The position numbers were made by a program, and so were the translations under genes. Below the pieces are notes generated by a model. That model had not been told where the DNA came from. It saw only the letters and a program-made list of their open reading frames with translations, and searched no databases. A stretch of 64,000 nucleotides of DNA from Bacillus sp. ISL-37 (GTDB lineage: Bacteria; Bacillota; Bacilli; Bacillales; Cytobacillaceae), in contig NZ_JAGGQL010000030.1 of the NCBI RefSeq assembly GCF_018613315.1, positions 1 to 64,000 of the forward strand, in the 5' to 3' direction. How positions within the stretch are numbered: the stretch's first letter is position 1; each line of letters starts with the position of its first letter. Below are positions 37,626 to 43,792 of this stretch, one piece after another.

Positions 37626-38141
37626 TTATTGCAACACTTTTAATGCTTCGCGATTGAATGCCGGGATATCTTTCGGTTCCCTGCTGGTCACGAGCTGATT
37701 GCAGCAAACGACGACTTCTTTATCCATGTATTTTGCTCCGGCATATTCCATATCGACGCGGATGGACTTATAGCCTGTGGCTCCTCTGCCTTCAAGCGTT
37801 TTTGCGGTAAGCAGCAGCTGCGGTCCATGGCAGATGGCGAAGACTGGTTTCTTCTCGTCCATGAATGCCTTGGCAAATTGCACGAACCGCTCGTCTTCAC
37901 GCAGCTGATCCGGAGAGAATCCTCCTGGGATGAAGAGTGCATCGAAATCTTCCGGCTTGACGTTATCGATACTTTCATCAATTTTAACCTCAGCTTTTTC
38001 CTGCTTTCCAGTAACGGTCTTGCCTTGTTCCTTTTCAATCGTAACCACTTCATGTCTAGCTTCAGTAAAAGCACGTGACGGCTCAAGATATTCGACATCT
38101 TCAAATAAATCGGTTATTAAACAGGCAATTTTTTTACCCAT
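37626..38141 (-). CDS. yfkM: DJ-1/PfpI family protein, general stress protein 18-like (YfkM)
   Basis: A 171-aa class I glutamine-amidotransferase-like protein. The nucleophile elbow is AICHGPQLL (Cys-His), with EDVEYLEPSRAF and DALFIPGGFSPDQLR in the usual places. Family members act as deglycases or glyoxalases against methylglyoxal; older annotation is intracellular protease. ATG 38141 follows AAAGGAGATG; the longer frame is unsupported. A consensus sigma-B promoter at 38184-38208 agrees with yfkM being a sigma-B gene in B. subtilis. Confidence 0.88.
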   Translation of the reverse strand: MGKKIACLITDLFEDVEYLEPSRAFTEARHEVVTIEKEQGKTVTGKQEKAEVKIDESIDNVKPEDFDALFIPGGFSPDQLREDERFVQFAKAFMDEKKPVFAICHGPQLLLTAKTLEGRGATGYKSIRVDMEYAGAKYMDKEVVVCCNQLVTSREPKDIPAFNREALKVLQ

Positions 38142-38183
38142 ATATTCAACATCTCCTTTTTTAAAAGAATCTCCACTATTAAA

Positions 38184-38208
38184 ATTCCCTGTCTTCCGCT
38201 TGTAAAAC
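38184..38208 (-). promoter_or_regulatory. sigma-B promoter of yfkM
   Basis: Minus strand GTTTTA (38208-38203), 13-nt spacer, GGGAAT (38189-38184), 43 bp upstream of the ATG. Confidence 0.75.
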
Positions 38209-38345
38209 ATATAAATAGAAGTTCCATTATCTTGTATAAAAACATGCCAAAAGACCTAACTTATTGCAAATATAAAAAAAACATTTTATATTTTCGCCAT
38301 TCAACTATAATTTAATTTAAGACATCAATAGGGAGAGAAGGCACC

Positions 38346-38621
38346 ATGAAATTTAGTTATGTCAATGTAATGGAAGAGGTCGTTTCCACTCTTGTCAATG
38401 TGTTGATGATGAGCCCTGATTACCAGACCTTCTGTAATTGCCAGAAGTGCCGGAATGATATCATTGCCATCAGCCTGAACACTCTTCCAAGTCACTACGT
38501 CACGACAGAAGATGGCCGGAAGATGGTTTACGAACAACTTAATACCCAGGAAAACAGAACCTGGATCAATAAAAGAATCATCAGTGCCATCCATCTTGTT
38601 GGCAAATACCCGAAGCATTAA
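38346..38621 (+). CDS. comFB: ComFB family protein (late competence / cyclic-dinucleotide receptor family)
   Basis: A 91-aa protein beginning MKFSYVNVMEEVVSTLVNVL, with the three-cysteine CNCQKC motif typical of zinc-binding ComFB, then DIIAISLNTLPSHYVTTEDG. ComFB is in the comF locus of B. subtilis with no clear role there; relatives in cyanobacteria bind cyclic di-nucleotides. AGGGAGAGAAGG precedes ATG 38346. Here it is separate from comFA and comFC, and lies 2 kb from a c-di-GMP riboswitch, which makes a signalling role plausible. Confidence 0.85.
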   Translation: MKFSYVNVMEEVVSTLVNVLMMSPDYQTFCNCQKCRNDIIAISLNTLPSHYVTTEDGRKMVYEQLNTQENRTWINKRIISAIHLVGKYPKH

Positions 38622-38674
38622 ATCAGAAATAAGTAATCAGATTGTCCAAATAGCTTATTATTATCTACAAATTA

Positions 38675-38723
38675 AAGCTGCCAATTGACAGCCGGGTAAC
38701 CGGGCATCCGTCAATGGCAGCTT
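38675..38723. terminator. bidirectional terminator between comFB and treR
   Basis: AAGCTGCCAATTGAC and GTCAATGGCAGCTT form a long stem around an inner CCGGG repeat; T-runs on the plus strand. Confidence 0.88.
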
Positions 38724-38732
38724 CTTTTTTTC

Positions 38733-39461
38733 TTATAAAGACTGTTGGGTATCCATCCGTCTGGCAAAATCAACGAAACGGAACTTGTCAGGGCGGTGTC
38801 TTGACTCGGTATATTGGAAAAGGGTAGCGTCATCAAAATAAATATAGTTTTTCACGATGACGATTGCATTAAACCCATCCATATCAAGGAGTTTTCTGTC
38901 CTCGGCACTTGGTTCCTCTACTGTGAATTCCTTTTTTGCAAAGCTAATTTTTTTCTCCAGTTTTCCTTCGATATACTCAAATATCGAGTTTTCACAAGCT
39001 ACACGTGATAGTCCTGGCACATGCTTTTCTACGAGAAAATCCTTGTCGAGGATCACTCTTTCTTCATCAATATGCCGTACTCTTTTTACCTTCCAAACCT
39101 TTTCATCATCCTCAACATTCAATTCCCTGGCAATTTCCCGGCCTGCCAATTCGAGAGTGAATTCTTCCACAGTCGTTTTCGCCTTTCCACCCATATTCTC
39201 CGCCAGTTCTTTAAAACTGATCAATCCGGAAATCGGAAACTGATGTCTTTTTAAATCCAGCACAAGTGAACCCTTGCCGCGAATTTTTTGGATGAATCCA
39301 TTTTGCGCAAGAAGATTCAGCGCTTTACGGATGGTTTCCCTGGACGTTTGGTACATGTCCGCAAATTCATTTTCCGATGGCAAAATCGTTTTAGGAGGAT
39401 AATGCCCTTCCTGGATCTGTTTCGAAATTTCTTCGTAGATCAATAAATATTTTTTTTGCAT
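38733..39461 (-). CDS. treR: trehalose operon repressor TreR (GntR family)
   Basis: A 242-aa regulator: GntR winged helix at residues 5-70 (TILPSENEFADMYQTSRETIRKALNLLAQNGFIQKIRGKGS) and a UTRA effector domain (FPISGLISFKELAENMGGKAKT, ENSIFEYIEGKL, TESRHRPDKFRFVDFARR). The whole length aligns with B. subtilis TreR, which binds trehalose 6-phosphate. No treP or treA is in the window. In B. subtilis treR adjoins the yfkM region, so this copy keeps its ancestral place after treP-treA were lost or moved. Confidence 0.9.
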   Translation of the reverse strand: MQKKYLLIYEEISKQIQEGHYPPKTILPSENEFADMYQTSRETIRKALNLLAQNGFIQKIRGKGSLVLDLKRHQFPISGLISFKELAENMGGKAKTTVEEFTLELAGREIARELNVEDDEKVWKVKRVRHIDEERVILDKDFLVEKHVPGLSRVACENSIFEYIEGKLEKKISFAKKEFTVEEPSAEDRKLLDMDGFNAIVIVKNYIYFDDATLFQYTESRHRPDKFRFVDFARRMDTQQSL

Positions 39462-39674
39462 AACATATCACCCGTACCTTGTCTGATTGCTACCATTTTA
39501 CCTTTTTTATGTTCGTTTGAATACAATAGACAATTGTGTTTGTTTTTTTCATACAAACTTCATAAAATAATGTGCAACTATAAACTACAATAGCCGATAT
39601 AAAAGCAGCGAGTTTTTTCCCAACAGTTTTTTTGATAAAAATAGACCCCAAAAACTTTAAGGTTGGTTATAATT

Positions 39675-39702
39675 GTTCTATAAGTCGTTCTCAATATGGA
39701 AC
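39675..39702 (+). promoter_or_regulatory. candidate SinR-type sites upstream of sinR
   Basis: GTTCTAT (39675-39681) and GTTCTCAATATGGAAC (39687-39702) resemble the SinR half-site GTTCTYT; the second is a GTTC/GAAC dyad. They lie 55-85 bp before sinR. Confidence 0.4.
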
Positions 39703-39758
39703 TATTTTATCAGATTTGTTATGATATAACTATAAATTGATAAGGTGTGTGGATAACA

Positions 39759-40079
39759 GTGATCGGTGAACGCGTCAAGAAACTTCGACAAGAAAAAAGG
39801 ATGTCCTTATCTGAACTGGCAGAGCAAGCTGGCGTGGCAAAATCATATTTGAGCTCTTTGGAGCGAAACCTTCAAACTAATCCTTCAATACAATTTCTAG
39901 AAAAGATAGCAGGAGTATTGAATGTTCCAGTAGACCATCTAATCCATGAACAACCTGACAAAGAAAACATGGATCTTGATTGGGTCAATCTTGTAAAAGA
40001 AGCAATGGATTCTGGTATCACAAAAGACCAGTTCCGTGAGTTTCTGGAATTCAATAAATGGAGACTCCACAACAAATAA
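39759..40079 (+). CDS. sinR: SinR master regulator of biofilm formation
   Basis: A 106-aa repressor of matrix genes. The Xre HTH (residues 1-65) includes SLSELAEQAGVAKSYLSSLERNLQTNPSIQFLEKIAGVLNV, nearly identical to B. subtilis SinR. The C-terminal SinI-type dimerisation helices are DWVNLVKEAMDSGITKDQFREFLEFNKWR. GTG 39759 (M-IGERVKKLRQEK) fits the family start and has AAGGTG upstream; an in-frame GTG at 39747 is less likely. Unlike B. subtilis, sinI is not directly upstream. Confidence 0.92.
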   Translation: MIGERVKKLRQEKRMSLSELAEQAGVAKSYLSSLERNLQTNPSIQFLEKIAGVLNVPVDHLIHEQPDKENMDLDWVNLVKEAMDSGITKDQFREFLEFNKWRLHNK

Positions 40080-40084
40080 ACCTC

Positions 40085-40108
40085 AATGGACAGCCTGCGC
40101 TGTCCATT
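40085..40108 (+). terminator. terminator of sinR
   Basis: AATGGACAGC pairs with GCTGTCCATT, followed by TTTTATT. Confidence 0.88.
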
Positions 40109-40162
40109 TTTTATTACGGCTGTTTTCGCATTGATTGTGGCTATTCATCCTTCGCCGCATAT

Positions 40163-40334
40163 ACGAAAAGAGACTTTATTAAATGCTCTTTTCGTAAAGA
40201 TTAACGTAATATATACCCATTTTGCAGGTCGGTATTAAGTTTGCATGCTCTTTTCTCACAAAAGGGTCAACATTACGAAGGAATATAGGTAATTCAATCC
40301 TATTTTGTAGTCAAATAGCAACAAAGTTTGAGAG
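40163..40334 (-). repeat. dispersed ~180-bp element, copy 2 (inverted, with internal deletion)
   Basis: The element at 40188-40334 matches the minus strand of the copies at 20988, 53791 and 55948, but lacks the GTTAAAATC/GATTTTAAC hairpin: the sequence jumps from ACGTTAA to TCTTTACG. It adjoins its own perfect inverted repeat, ACGAAAAGAG (40163-40172) ... CTCTTTTCGT (40186-40195). Confidence 0.8.
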
Positions 40335-40419
40335 TAGAGCCTTTATTATAAAAATAAAAAGCACCTCTAAAAAGAGCTGCTCGATGGCAATTCCGTTTTC
40401 TATGTAAAGATCCACTTGC

Positions 40420-40545
40420 CTATTTGTTGGTCTTCGTTAAAAACTCCCTGATTTCTTCTTTGTTTATCCCCAACTCTAATGCTTCCATTATAAGCTGCAT
40501 CCATTCTGTATCCAGTTCTTCGAAAACTACCTGTTCTTTAATCAA
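40420..40545 (-). CDS. sinI: SinI anti-repressor
   Basis: A 41-aa protein, TTG start at 40545, GGGGGG 6 nt upstream. It contains ELDTEWMQLIMEALELGI then NKEEIREFL, matching the SinI dimerisation helices (LDxEWxxLxxEAxxxxIxxEEIRxFL) that bind SinR. There is no DNA-binding part. It is too short and has a rare start, so routine callers would miss it. It is transcribed toward sinR from the opposite strand, downstream of a c-di-GMP riboswitch; in B. subtilis sinI-sinR is one operon activated by Spo0A-P. Confidence 0.88.
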   Translation of the reverse strand: MIKEQVVFEELDTEWMQLIMEALELGINKEEIREFLTKTNK

Positions 40546-40574
40546 GTTCTTCCCCCCAAAATACAGTTAGTATT

Positions 40575-40655
40575 CCAGGCAGTCCGGCCATCATAGTACA
40601 TCGCACCTTAGATCCGTGACTTTGCGTCCTAGTTTTTCAACAAGTTTGCCTTTTT
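40575..40655 (-). promoter_or_regulatory. c-di-GMP-I (GEMM) riboswitch in the sinI leader
   Basis: On the minus strand the order is AAAGGCAAAC, a hairpin with a GAAA tetraloop (TTGTTGAAAAACTA), GGACGCAAAGTCACGG, ATCTAAGG, then TATGATGGCCGGACTGCC. These are the conserved GEMM-I blocks, including the tetraloop, GACGCAAAG and the closing GGCA/TGCC P1 stem. The aptamer ends 32 nt before the sinI TTG, with no terminator between, so control of translation or an overlapping anti-ribosome-binding-site structure is more likely than transcription termination. Confidence 0.87.
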
Positions 40656-40901
40656 CTGTATCTTTCTACTCACTTTTTTAATCCCAATGTCATTGTACAT
40701 TGTTCTATATATTTAACATGTAAATATTTGTCGGCAACAATATAAGTATTTTTTCTCTTTTCTTCCAAACAATTACAAAAACATAGCATAAAAGTTTTAT
40801 TATCTGAAAATTTAAACCATTTACTTAAAGATCTTTGTCAGATTATAGCTCTAATTGTTGAACTCTTTTTTAAAAATAACCCCCATAAACTTGAGATGAT
40901 C

Positions 40902-41096
40902 CTATGGATGGCCAGTTTTCTTATACATTTGCTTTTTTAAGTGCGGTAAAATTGCCACTTTCTCAAGACTGATGGCATTAAAAAACGGGTATCTCGTTAA
41001 ATCATTTCCGCAAATCGGGCAGAGCCACTCTCCAACCTCACTGCTGCTAAACGAAGGACGGTTACAACGATCACAATTTTTTCTGTACACGGCCAT
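40902..41096 (-). CDS. small zinc-ribbon protein, 64 aa
   Basis: MAVYRKNCDRCNRPSFSSSE then WLCPICGNDLTRYPFF: two CxxC pairs 18 residues apart form a rubredoxin/zinc-ribbon-like fold. A basic C-terminal helix follows. ATG 41096 has AAAAGGGGGC upstream; the longer frame to 41159 is unlikely. It is divergent from the second SinR-like gene and shares its promoter region, including the 16-bp-arm palindrome. No function known. Confidence 0.65.
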   Translation of the reverse strand: MAVYRKNCDRCNRPSFSSSEVGEWLCPICGNDLTRYPFFNAISLEKVAILPHLKKQMYKKTGHP

Positions 41097-41187
41097 CAAG
41101 CCCCCTTTTAAAAGAAATTTGTTACTATATTCCATTCGAGTATAGTCCATTTGTATCAATTCTGAAAAAGTCTAAAATATCGCTAAT

Positions 41188-41226
41188 TTTCTTAAAAAAG
41201 AACAAAAATCGTTCTTTTTTAAGAAA
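41188..41226. promoter_or_regulatory. large operator-like palindrome between the zinc-ribbon gene and the SinR paralogue
   Basis: TTTCTTAAAAAAGAAC (41188-41203) and GTTCTTTTTTAAGAAA (41211-41226) are perfect 16-bp arms around AAAAATC. The inner GTTCTTT is the SinR consensus half-site. It sits between divergent start codons, so an operator is more likely than a terminator. Confidence 0.65.
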
Positions 41227-41272
41227 TACCTCCGTTTATCTCAGTTTCTTGTATTTTTAAAAGAACCGAATT

Positions 41273-41294
41273 GTTCGTTATAATGAATTAATAG
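41273..41294 (+). promoter_or_regulatory. GAAC-N6-GTTC site adjoining a TATAAT -10 box
   Basis: GAACCGAATTGTTC (41273-41286) ends 2 nt before TATAAT (41289-41294), 24 bp before the start codon. A repressor bound here would block the promoter; likely bound by one of the SinR proteins. Confidence 0.45.
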
Positions 41295-41317
41295 ATGAAT
41301 AAAAAGGAGATTCTCTT

Positions 41318-41656
41318 ATGACGGTTGGAGAGAAAATAAAAAGTTTAAGGCTTGAAAAAAAGTATTCCATTAGTGAACTCTCTGAAAAAGCGAAAGTTTC
41401 CAAATCCTATCTCAGTTATATCGAAAGAGGAATCCAGGAAAATCCATCGCTTCAGGTATTGTCCCGCCTGGCAGTCAACCTGGATACAACTGTTGAATAT
41501 TTGATGGGACAGCAAAACATGAAAGCTGCCAGGATGCCTGTTGATGAGGAATGGGTTGGACTCGTTGATGAAGCTATAAAAAACGGAATCAGCAAAGAAG
41601 ATTTTGCATATTATCTGGATTTCATGAAGTTTAAGAGCAGGAGAAAACAGGATTAG
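41318..41656 (+). CDS. SinR/SlrR-like HTH regulator (second SinR paralogue)
   Basis: A 112-aa Xre-family protein: HTH MTVGEKIKSLRLEKKYSISE ... SKSYLSYIERGIQENPSLQVLSRLAVNLDTTVEYLMGQQ, then SinI-like dimerisation helices (DEEWVGLVDEAIKNGISKEDFAYYLDFMKFK). It is about as long as SinR and shorter than SlrR. AAAAAGGAG precedes ATG 41318. Its C-terminal helices suggest it could pair with SinI or SinR. The GTTC/GAAC dyads upstream suggest auto- or cross-regulation. Confidence 0.85.
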   Translation: MTVGEKIKSLRLEKKYSISELSEKAKVSKSYLSYIERGIQENPSLQVLSRLAVNLDTTVEYLMGQQNMKAARMPVDEEWVGLVDEAIKNGISKEDFAYYLDFMKFKSRRKQD

Positions 41657-41745
41657 CAGTTAAGTATTTATATAAATTACAATGCACAACGGCGCTTTAG
41701 AACAAGTATTTTCTATTAGAGGCTGATTATTGCACGCCCAAAAAA

Positions 41746-41770
41746 AGAACCAGCCTCATAGGCTGATTCT
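41746..41770 (-). terminator. terminator of psuG overlapping its stop codon
   Basis: AGAACCAGCCT and AGGCTGATTCT form the stem, with TTTTTT following on the minus strand; the TGA stop at 41756-41758 lies inside. Confidence 0.85.
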
Positions 41771-42682
41771 CTGTTTGGCCAGGCTGGCTGCAATCTTTGC
41801 CCCCACCCTCGCATTATTTTTTACAAGTGCGATATTCGCAACAAGGCTTTTCCCATCAGTTAATTCTTTCACCTTCCCAAGAAGGAATGGAGTTACCTGT
41901 TTGCCGGCGATTTGTTTTTCCCTGGCTTCACCCAGTGCTTTTTCGATTACATTGGCGATAAAGCTCTCCTCCAAGGCGTCTTCTTCTGGAATTGGATTAG
42001 CCACGACGACTCCTCCATCAAGCCCCAATTCCCATTTTGTTTTGATCATCTCTGCTACAGCTTCATGTGTATCAAGCCGGAAGTTGACATTGTATGGGCT
42101 TGTACGCGTGTAAAAAGCTGGCAGTGAGTCTGTCCCAAAACCTAAAACAGGAACCCCCTGAGTCTCTAGGTATTCAAGCGTGAGTCCCAGGTCAAGAATA
42201 GACTTGGCACCGGCACATACAACCGCGACATTCGTTTTGGCAAGCTCCTGAAGGTCTGCGGAAATATCCATCGTACTCTCTGCTTCGCGATGTACGCCGC
42301 CTATTCCGCCAGTCACAAATACTTCAATCTTTGCGAGCTCAGCGCAAATCATCGTTGCCGCCACCGTTGTCGCTCCATTTTTCTTTGTGGATAACAAATA
42401 CGGCAAGTCCCGCCGGCTCGCCTTCTCAACATCTCTGCTCTGCGCCAGGTACTCAAGCTCTTCATCTGACAAGCCAATTTTTATTTTCCCATCGAGGATG
42501 GCAATGGTTGCAGGTACCGCTCCATTTTCACGGATGATTTGTTCTACTTCTCTCGCTGTGTGGACATTCTGTGGATAAGGCATCCCATGTGAAATAATTG
42601 TTGATTCCAGGGCGACGACCGGTTTGCCTGCTTTTTTCGCTTCTGTTACTTCCTGTGAATATTCTAGCCACTTTTCCAGCAT
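41756..42682 (-). CDS. psuG: pseudouridine-5'-phosphate glycosidase PsuG
   Basis: Cleaves pseudouridine 5'-phosphate reversibly to uracil and ribose 5-phosphate. The 308-aa protein shows [47 protein letters not shown] (catalytic lysine region), [20 protein letters not shown] and [15 protein letters not shown] 42682 has GCGAGGTAC upstream and is 12 bp after the kinase gene, so the two form an operon for pseudouridine catabolism. Confidence 0.93.
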
Positions 42683-42694
42683 CGTGTACCTCGC

Positions 42695-43792
42695 TTATTT
42701 AAAATTTTGTTTATATGTGTCTAGCAATTGTTTATTATTTAATATCGGGTTTACTGTCTCAATCGATTGCAGCGTCAAAATGGAACAGGCCATGCCAATT
42801 TTGCAAGCATCCTCTGTCTGGATGCCATTTATATGGGCATATATGATTCCTGCAACGAGCGAATCTCCTGCTCCTGTTACATCGATAACAGAAATTGCCG
42901 GGGGAATCAGCACACCAGCTTCACCTTTTGAGGTAAAATAAATCAGGCCTTTGTCTCCGCGGCTGATGACAACCTTCTCTACACCTTTATGTATAATCAA
43001 CTCTGCTGCCTTAAAGTAGTCGCCTTCATTGTTGATCCTGATGCCCGAAATGGCTTCTGCCTCATCTTTATTGGCTATCAGCCAGGTCACGCCTAGTAGG
43101 TTCTGCGGCAGTTTCTTTGCCTTCGGGGACGATACGGGGGTGATACAAAGCTGGATGTTCTCATTCCGACAGCGATCAATGATTCTTACAAGGACATCTG
43201 CCGGGAAATTTGTATCCAGCATAATGAAATCGGATGAAGCGAAATAACCCCATTTGCGATCGATGAAGTCAGGAGTGATAGCATCATAGATTGACATTTC
43301 CGCTAACGCTACCGTCATTTCTCCCTCATTATCTAGTATTGCCGTATACGCTCCAGTCGACTGCCCCTTGAGTGTTTCTGATGGGTTTACATCCGCAAAT
43401 GCCTTTGTATATTCCATAAGCCAGTGGCCTTCGTGGTCATCACCGACTGCTGTCAGTATACTTACATCACTTCCAAGCCTGCCCAAATTCTCTCCGATAT
43501 TCCTGGCAACCCCTCCGCATGATTTAGAACTTTCAGCCGGGTTCGAAGTGCGCAGCTCCAGAACACCCTTCGACCATATTTTGCGGTCGACATTTGCCCC
43601 TCCCACACACAGTACCTGACGCCTTTCCGGTAAAATATATGCCCGTCCAATAAGCTTTCCTTGCTTTATTAAAGAAGAAATATAGCCGGCAACTTCGGAA
43701 CGCGATAAATCTGTCTTCGCAGCAAGATCAATCTGTGAAATGAACGGATCCTCTTTAATCAGTTTTAAAATAAGAGCCTCTTTTTCGTCCAT
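42695..43792 (-). CDS. psuK: pseudouridine kinase PsuK (PfkB family with N-terminal HTH)
   Basis: A 365-aa protein: a winged-helix segment at residues 1-60 (MDEKEALILKLIKEDPFISQ, DLSRSEVAGYISSLIKQGKLIGRAYIL) and a PfkB kinase domain (VLCVGGANVDRKIWSKG; CGGVARNIGENLGRLG; C-terminal VTGAGDSLVAGI with catalytic aspartate). It phosphorylates pseudouridine for PsuG. The HTH may allow self-regulation, as in other fused PsuK proteins. ATG 43792 chosen over GTG 43801 by spacing to GAGGTG. Confidence 0.92.
   Translation of the reverse strand: MDEKEALILKLIKEDPFISQIDLAAKTDLSRSEVAGYISSLIKQGKLIGRAYILPERRQVLCVGGANVDRKIWSKGVLELRTSNPAESSKSCGGVARNIGENLGRLGSDVSILTAVGDDHEGHWLMEYTKAFADVNPSETLKGQSTGAYTAILDNEGEMTVALAEMSIYDAITPDFIDRKWGYFASSDFIMLDTNFPADVLVRIIDRCRNENIQLCITPVSSPKAKKLPQNLLGVTWLIANKDEAEAISGIRINNEGDYFKAAELIIHKGVEKVVISRGDKGLIYFTSKGEAGVLIPPAISVIDVTGAGDSLVAGIIYAHINGIQTEDACKIGMACSILTLQSIETVNPILNNKQLLDTYKQNFK

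Follow-up and report, generated by a model that had tools for sequence, protein, structure and literature searches.

Does c-di-GMP reach the SinI-SinR biofilm switch directly, through an RNA sensor in the leader of sinI? c-di-GMP is commonly regarded as marginal to biofilm control in B. subtilis. SinI is a small protein that inactivates SinR, a repressor of biofilm formation. If SinI requires high c-di-GMP in many other Bacillaceae, the best-studied Gram-positive biofilm switch gains a direct second-messenger input that is missing in the model organism. The question was raised by a preliminary description of the 64,000-nt stretch of Bacillus sp. ISL-37 DNA analyzed here (hereafter, the window), in which blocks of a c-di-GMP-I (GEMM-I) riboswitch were noted in front of a SinI gene, an Rfam search was proposed as a check, and c-di-GMP was suggested to set the SinI level directly by a route not previously described.

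Aptamer and genes at the sinI locus

Positions 38000-43000 of the window were searched with cmscan (Rfam 15). The sole match above its gathering score was that of the c-di-GMP-I model (RF01051) to minus-strand positions 40660-40575, with 81 bits against a gathering score of 35 (E 1.8e-15) and a full-length alignment covering model positions 1-87; rli52 and SNORD11B were both under their gathering scores. The proposed Rfam check was thus positive, every GEMM-I block named in the preliminary description is present in the sequence, and its distance from aptamer blocks to gene was correct: the last aptamer block, GCCGGACTGCC, ends at 40578, and the TTG start codon lies 32 nt further at 40545. Measured from the end of the aptamer match (40575), the SinI ORF starts after 29 nt. 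In the alignment of the window to RF01051, G, A and C are present at the positions aligned to the Vc2 ligand contacts G20, A47 and C92; this placement, including 40579 as the C92 equivalent, is partly assumed. All three bases are named as ligand contacts of Vc2 in the available text of two studies (PMC4744006, PMC11218506). By sequence, the element is a canonical c-di-GMP-I aptamer and is predicted to bind c-di-GMP.

The downstream ORF (40545-40420, minus strand, TTG start, 41 aa) was compared with Pfam and with the B. subtilis SinI-SinR complex. It matched Pfam SinI (PF08671) with 48.8 bits (E 5.7e-13; cut-off 31.4) and B. subtilis SinI (1b0n_B) with E 6.8e-5, which confirmed the SinI gene of the preliminary description. 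The profile match and the small size of the product, which has no HTH, are those of a SinI antirepressor; the product is a predicted SinI and, by homology, a putative SinR binding partner. Convergent with sinI lies sinR (39747-40079, plus strand), whose 110-aa product carries HTH_3 and SinI domains and matched B. subtilis SinR (1b0n_A) with E 2e-36. Between the two genes, at 40351-40382 on the minus strand, is an intrinsic terminator-like hairpin with a T run; the terminator scan gave -11.7 kcal/mol for the hairpin 3' of sinI.

A second SinR-like regulator of 112 aa (41318-41656, plus strand; HTH_3 and SinI domain, 35.8 bits) is encoded divergently upstream of sinI. A similar above-cut-off match was seen near sinI in 15 of the 21 genomes of the genus, the window's genome included. 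An 85-aa frame (40902-41159, minus strand), cysteine-rich by eye, lies on the same strand as sinI directly upstream of its putative promoter and gave a weak match to Pfam Auto_anti-p27, under the cut-off. The rli52 match (41738-41828, minus strand; 29.5 bits against a gathering score of 70) is perhaps a terminator hairpin behind the ORF at 41756-42682.

Distribution of the aptamer-sinI pair

A c-di-GMP-I match adjoined a short SinI frame in all 21 genomes of the window's genus, and in every one of them 106-108 nt separated the GACGCAAAG block from the D-x-E-W codons of SinI. A chance aptamer was ruled out by the 81-bit score and by conservation, and is excluded further because aptamer and SinI adjoin at the same spacing throughout the genus; a single-strain special case was ruled out by the same 21 genomes together with the spread across the order. 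Additional SinI-like frames in three of the genomes (G006, G007 and G012) had no adjoining aptamer among the matches listed.

Outside the genus, loci were collected with a strict DNA pattern that joined the aptamer core to D-x-E-W codons at 95-125 nt. Since GGCAAA, RACGCAAAG and the spacing are all constant in this pattern, variation in them cannot be measured with it, and all counts so obtained are lower bounds. When the order was sampled evenly, 122 of 397 genomes, belonging to 45 of 135 genera, carried the pattern, and its reversed version matched none; a SinI frame was seen by eye in each of the 30 order-sample loci fetched. Named GTDB genomes gave at least 120 strict-pattern loci. A SinI frame, recognized by eye from translations, stood behind the aptamer in 108 of 120 loci among the matches listed; the remaining 12, which came from outside the Bacilli or had unrelated frames, were left out. 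The 108 listed loci carry 33 genus names, nearly all Bacillales, one of which is surely a mislabel.

A SinI-domain search was evaluated for its 16 best non-genus loci (L186-L201, mostly SinR-centered), which are top-scoring matches and not a random draw. Twelve of these 16 carried a c-di-GMP-I-type aptamer, and nine of the 12 aptamers directly preceded a SinI frame as determined by script. No RF01051 match was obtained in 14 control genomes, B. subtilis included. A SinR homologue lay at most 800 nt behind sinI in 68 of the 108 loci among the matches listed, 45 convergent and 23 in the same direction, and both kinds carry the riboswitch, which thus stays with sinI in either gene order. In the same listed set, 30 loci had no SinR behind sinI despite room, and 10 ended too early.

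Several genomes held more than one aptamer-sinI unit. Two units about 2.4 kb apart were found on one contig in Pseudalkalibacillus caeni (NZ_SWLG01000016.1; L072 and L109), and likewise on G349:C8. Multiple units were also present in Salipaludibacillus (L106/L153 and L140/L144) and in G312, with three matches.

A hairpin over the sinI Shine-Dalgarno sequence

The linker between aptamer and start codon was folded in the window and in the relatives. In the window, the MFE fold contained a candidate expression-platform hairpin, CCUGGAAUAC-UAACU-GUAUUUUGGG (40555-40579, minus strand). Its first two Cs are also aptamer bases, 40579 being the C92 equivalent, and at its 3' end it overlaps the beginning of the Shine-Dalgarno (SD) sequence GGGGGGAAG (40549-40557, minus strand). 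Alignment of the relatives' linkers gave the consensus CCTGAAATAC-loop-GTATTTTAGGAGG, a 10-bp hairpin whose 5' arm opens with the last two aptamer Cs and whose 3' arm ends in the first Gs of the SD. Because the hairpin takes both the aptamer Cs and the SD, ligand binding and SD masking should be mutually exclusive. Without the two C-G pairs, the energy changed from -10.0 to -4.1 kcal/mol for the consensus hairpin and from -8.8 to -4.0 kcal/mol for that of the window.

Aptamer ends in the 108 listed loci were placed by alignment. Among these matches, the C92 equivalent was C in 105 of 108 and the following base was C in 104 of 108. The distance from the C92 equivalent to the start codon had a median of 34 nt and a range of 20-44 among 106 listed loci; L067 and L178, for which the SD was assigned by hand, were excluded from the spacing and start-codon counts. 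Linkers of the 108 listed loci had a mean MFE of -8.5 kcal/mol, against -4.7 kcal/mol when shuffled, and for 67 of them at most 5% of 100 shuffles were equally stable. The probability that CC pairs with the SD was at least 0.5 in 82 of the 108 listed linkers and below 0.5 in 26, and is weak as a lone measure, because shuffles that retained CC and SD already reached a summed mean probability of 59.4.

The 10-bp stem was assessed in a MAFFT alignment of 73 linkers, picked by eye as long from 102 distinct ones (one short linker, L066, was included) with 29 omitted. In this selection, 95.4% of stem cells were paired, against 27-55% when the stem was slid by 1-3 columns and 93.9% in column shuffles. 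MAFFT misaligned the two Niallia linkers (L074 and L168), an error that works against the stem. Covariation was weak: both sides changed in 3 of 10 pairs, compared with 1.8 for shuffles, of which 106 in 500 reached 3, and changes within the stem of the 73 aligned linkers were mostly one-sided.

By eye, two groups of linkers seemingly keep the same exclusion with other sequence: Niallia L074 and L168 have CCUUAUA/UAUAAGG, and L133 and L151 have UCCUCC/GGAGGA. The latter two showed a near-zero CC-SD probability; the folded segment begins at CC, so that the upstream half of the UCCUCC/GGAGGA pairing was omitted.

The cost of opening the SD was then computed for each leader. Among the 108 listed loci, it averaged 4.7 kcal/mol in the free leader against 2.0 kcal/mol when the aptamer was kept separate; 75 showed a difference above 1 kcal/mol and 6 one below -0.5 kcal/mol. 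When only the 3' part was considered, the difference averaged 3.7 kcal/mol, compared with 1.2 kcal/mol for shuffled linkers, and 57 of the 108 listed leaders beat 95% of their own shuffled linkers. Within the genus, the difference was above 1 kcal/mol in 10 of 21 members and negative in one. A structure that masks the SD and excludes the ligand-bound aptamer, as a translational ON switch would have, was found at the sinI locus of the window, with a modeled energetic contrast of only 0.8 kcal/mol.

We judge it probable that the element is a canonical c-di-GMP-I riboswitch controlling the translation of sinI, in which case it would most likely be an ON switch. Without c-di-GMP, the hairpin would form, pull the ligand-contacting C from the pocket and mask the SD, and little SinI would be made. 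With c-di-GMP, the aptamer would retain its two Cs, and the hairpin, lacking two C-G pairs, would open at the SD. The freed SD would then allow translation of SinI, which would bind SinR. As the SD of sinI alone would be controlled, the SinI:SinR ratio would shift with sinR left alone. The suggestion that c-di-GMP sets SinI directly thus fits an aptamer that precedes sinI, is widely conserved and shares two bases with an SD hairpin; the accompanying claim of novelty is taken up below.

Putative promoter and possible Spo0A input

A putative sigma-A-like promoter lies upstream of the aptamer at 40692-40724 (minus strand) and consists of TTTACA (40724-40719), a 21-nt spacer and TACAAT (40697-40692). 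We take the long spacing to be reminiscent of Spo0A-activated promoters of the spoIIG type. Just upstream of the -35-like element is a Spo0A-box-like site, CGACAAAT (40726-40733, minus strand; the reverse of TTTGTCGaa). This site or a close form of it is kept at most of the 21 genus loci, and the genus largely keeps CGACAAATAnTTACA, the spacer and TACAAT upstream of the aptamer.

Upstream regions of relatives were searched with TTTGTCGAA, which we take to be the Spo0A box, in 105 of the 108 listed loci (three had too little upstream sequence), and compared with dinucleotide shuffles, with a plain shuffle as fallback. Among these listed relatives, TTTGTCGAA with at most one mismatch occurred in 35 of 105 regions against 7.0 in shuffles, and exact TGTCGAA in 21 of 105 against 1.6. 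The window site has two mismatches to TTTGTCGAA, and sites of this class were at chance level in the same listed relatives (found in 54 of 105 regions, with 51.8 expected), so that the case for the window's site rests on position and conservation. Control of sinI by Spo0A is probably retained in many relatives, judging from these upstream sequences, and is a weaker proposition for the window itself.

In B. subtilis, sinI is under Spo0A control, and the preliminary description had set this against the c-di-GMP route. In many relatives the two probably coexist, given that Spo0A-box-like sites are enriched there upstream. The enrichment suggests a switch with two inputs, and with Spo0A control retained the riboswitch would add a second condition. 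The transcript would probably be supplied by the upstream promoter with its Spo0A-box-like site, and SinI would therefore need Spo0A~P and c-di-GMP together. On balance, we lean toward a model in which, across much of the Bacillaceae and neighboring groups (B. subtilis excepted), the SinR-controlled state is entered through a two-key lock: Spo0A~P would make the sinI mRNA, and the c-di-GMP riboswitch would free its SD for translation, acting directly on SinI:SinR. The sensor-less circuit of B. subtilis would then be a reduced form.

Alternative explanations

An aptamer that binds c-di-GMP but turns sinI OFF, or that acts through transcription or mRNA decay and not through SD unmasking, would be consistent with the small ON contrast computed for the window (0.8 kcal/mol), with the lack of the hairpin in some relatives (CC-SD probability below 0.5 in 26 of 108 loci among the matches listed) and with the opposite sign of the SD-opening difference in 6 of the 108. 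We consider such a mechanism unlikely, the conserved hairpin covering the SD and drawing bases from the aptamer. A transcriptional version would match the other c-di-GMP-I copies of the genus, which look transcriptional by sequence: 27 of 32 (35 loci minus L007 and the two sinI loci, L003 and L024) had a terminator-like hairpin within 260 nt behind the aptamer. By contrast, only 3 of 108 sinI leaders among the matches listed had one, the scanned leaders being shorter than the 260-nt comparison regions, and a terminator platform for the sinI leader was rejected on this comparison.

It is quite improbable that, in place of c-di-GMP, the aptamer senses a similar molecule, for example 3',3'-cGAMP or the one recognized by the c-di-GMP-I-GGC variant. 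RF03167 (c-di-GMP-I-GGC) was the best model for 3 of 16 family loci (L190, L197 and L198; sinI-linked), but L190, the one of these inspected in the alignment, has A (GCAAAG) where the GGC model has G; with this canonical A kept, its assignment to the GGC family seems to stem from other regions of the model. The window matches RF01051 and retains G, A and C at the G20, A47 and C92 contacts, and in its genome 17 matches to GGDEF and 13 to EAL domains were found. The canonical contacts of the window and the A of L190 led us to reject an altered ligand site of the GGC type. The hairpin might also be a ligand-independent brake on translation, with the aptamer a relic or serving another RNA; the model does retain a shorter stem when the two Cs are removed. 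Relics would decay, however, and full-length canonical aptamers at a constant distance are present in every one of the 21 genus genomes and recur in numerous genera across the order, which makes this account highly improbable. The translational ON switch remains the preferred reading.

Relation to known systems

The sinI-sinR switch of B. subtilis (1b0n) resembles the present locus in its SinI and SinR homologues, and Spo0A-box-like sites occur upstream of sinI here. It differs in that B. subtilis gave no RF01051 match, whereas sinI here has its own riboswitch leader, and in that sinI here faces sinR, unlike in the B. subtilis operon. A known riboswitch class has an unusual and important target here, with the strict pattern present in roughly one in three genomes sampled from the order.

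The link between a c-di-GMP riboswitch and sinI, which the preliminary description had held not to be described, was already listed in 2015 as an annotation in Bacillus methanolicus MGA3, where Table 4 gives '(c-di-GMP)-sinI, control of biofilm formation' as a putative entry based on prediction only (PMC4342826). That entry shares with the present analysis a c-di-GMP riboswitch predicted before sinI and differs in being, in the available text, a single annotation line for one species without platform, direction, conservation or test. No further mention of a c-di-GMP riboswitch before sinI was found in the literature searched, and earlier ones in the founding papers are possible. As far as the available text of these sources goes, the aptamer-sinI pair is known as an annotation, and how widely it occurs, the hairpin at the SD and the probable ON behavior combined with Spo0A are apparently undescribed.

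In the Bacillus cereus group, c-di-GMP-I riboswitches have been described as Bc1 and Bc2 and before cbpA and mcpA (PMC11218506, PMC7793685, PMC7423583), the riboswitch before cbpA being termed 'on' and that before mcpA 'off' (PMC7793685). These are likewise c-di-GMP-I aptamers within a Bacillus; as described in the available text, the platform of Bc1 differs in containing two terminators and extending over as much as 220 bp, and the named targets are an adhesion gene and a chemotaxis gene, not sinI. In B. thuringiensis, sinI and spo0A transcripts were up at high c-di-GMP, and the available part of that report invoked no riboswitch for sinI (PMC7793685); this rise stands alongside the link proposed here.

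The Vc1 riboswitch of Vibrio cholerae gbpA is also a c-di-GMP-I aptamer whose reporter drops when c-di-GMP is lowered (PMC4744006). Changing its C104, the equivalent of C92, left reporter activity unchanged (PMC4744006), so loss of the C92 equivalent need not abolish sensing. According to the available text, Vc1 differs in the dispensable C92 equivalent and in the greater length of its leader, in which the authors of that study recognized neither a terminator nor an anti-SD; the sinI leader is short and carries an SD hairpin.

Other c-di-GMP-I copies and matrix genes in the genome

The genome of the window contains seven RF01051 copies, i.e. six besides the sinI copy (L001, L002, L004, L005, L006 and L007). 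No match to PF12389, the family of which we take TasA to be a member, was found in this genome; the B. subtilis control gave a match. The matrix output of B. subtilis can therefore not be assumed, and the genes downstream of SinI/SinR may be other than in B. subtilis. Among the other riboswitch copies, a terminator-like hairpin was present downstream of L001, L002, L004 and L006 and none downstream of L005. By eye, a 74-aa frame follows the aptamer of L001, and a phosphatase-like frame follows that of L002.
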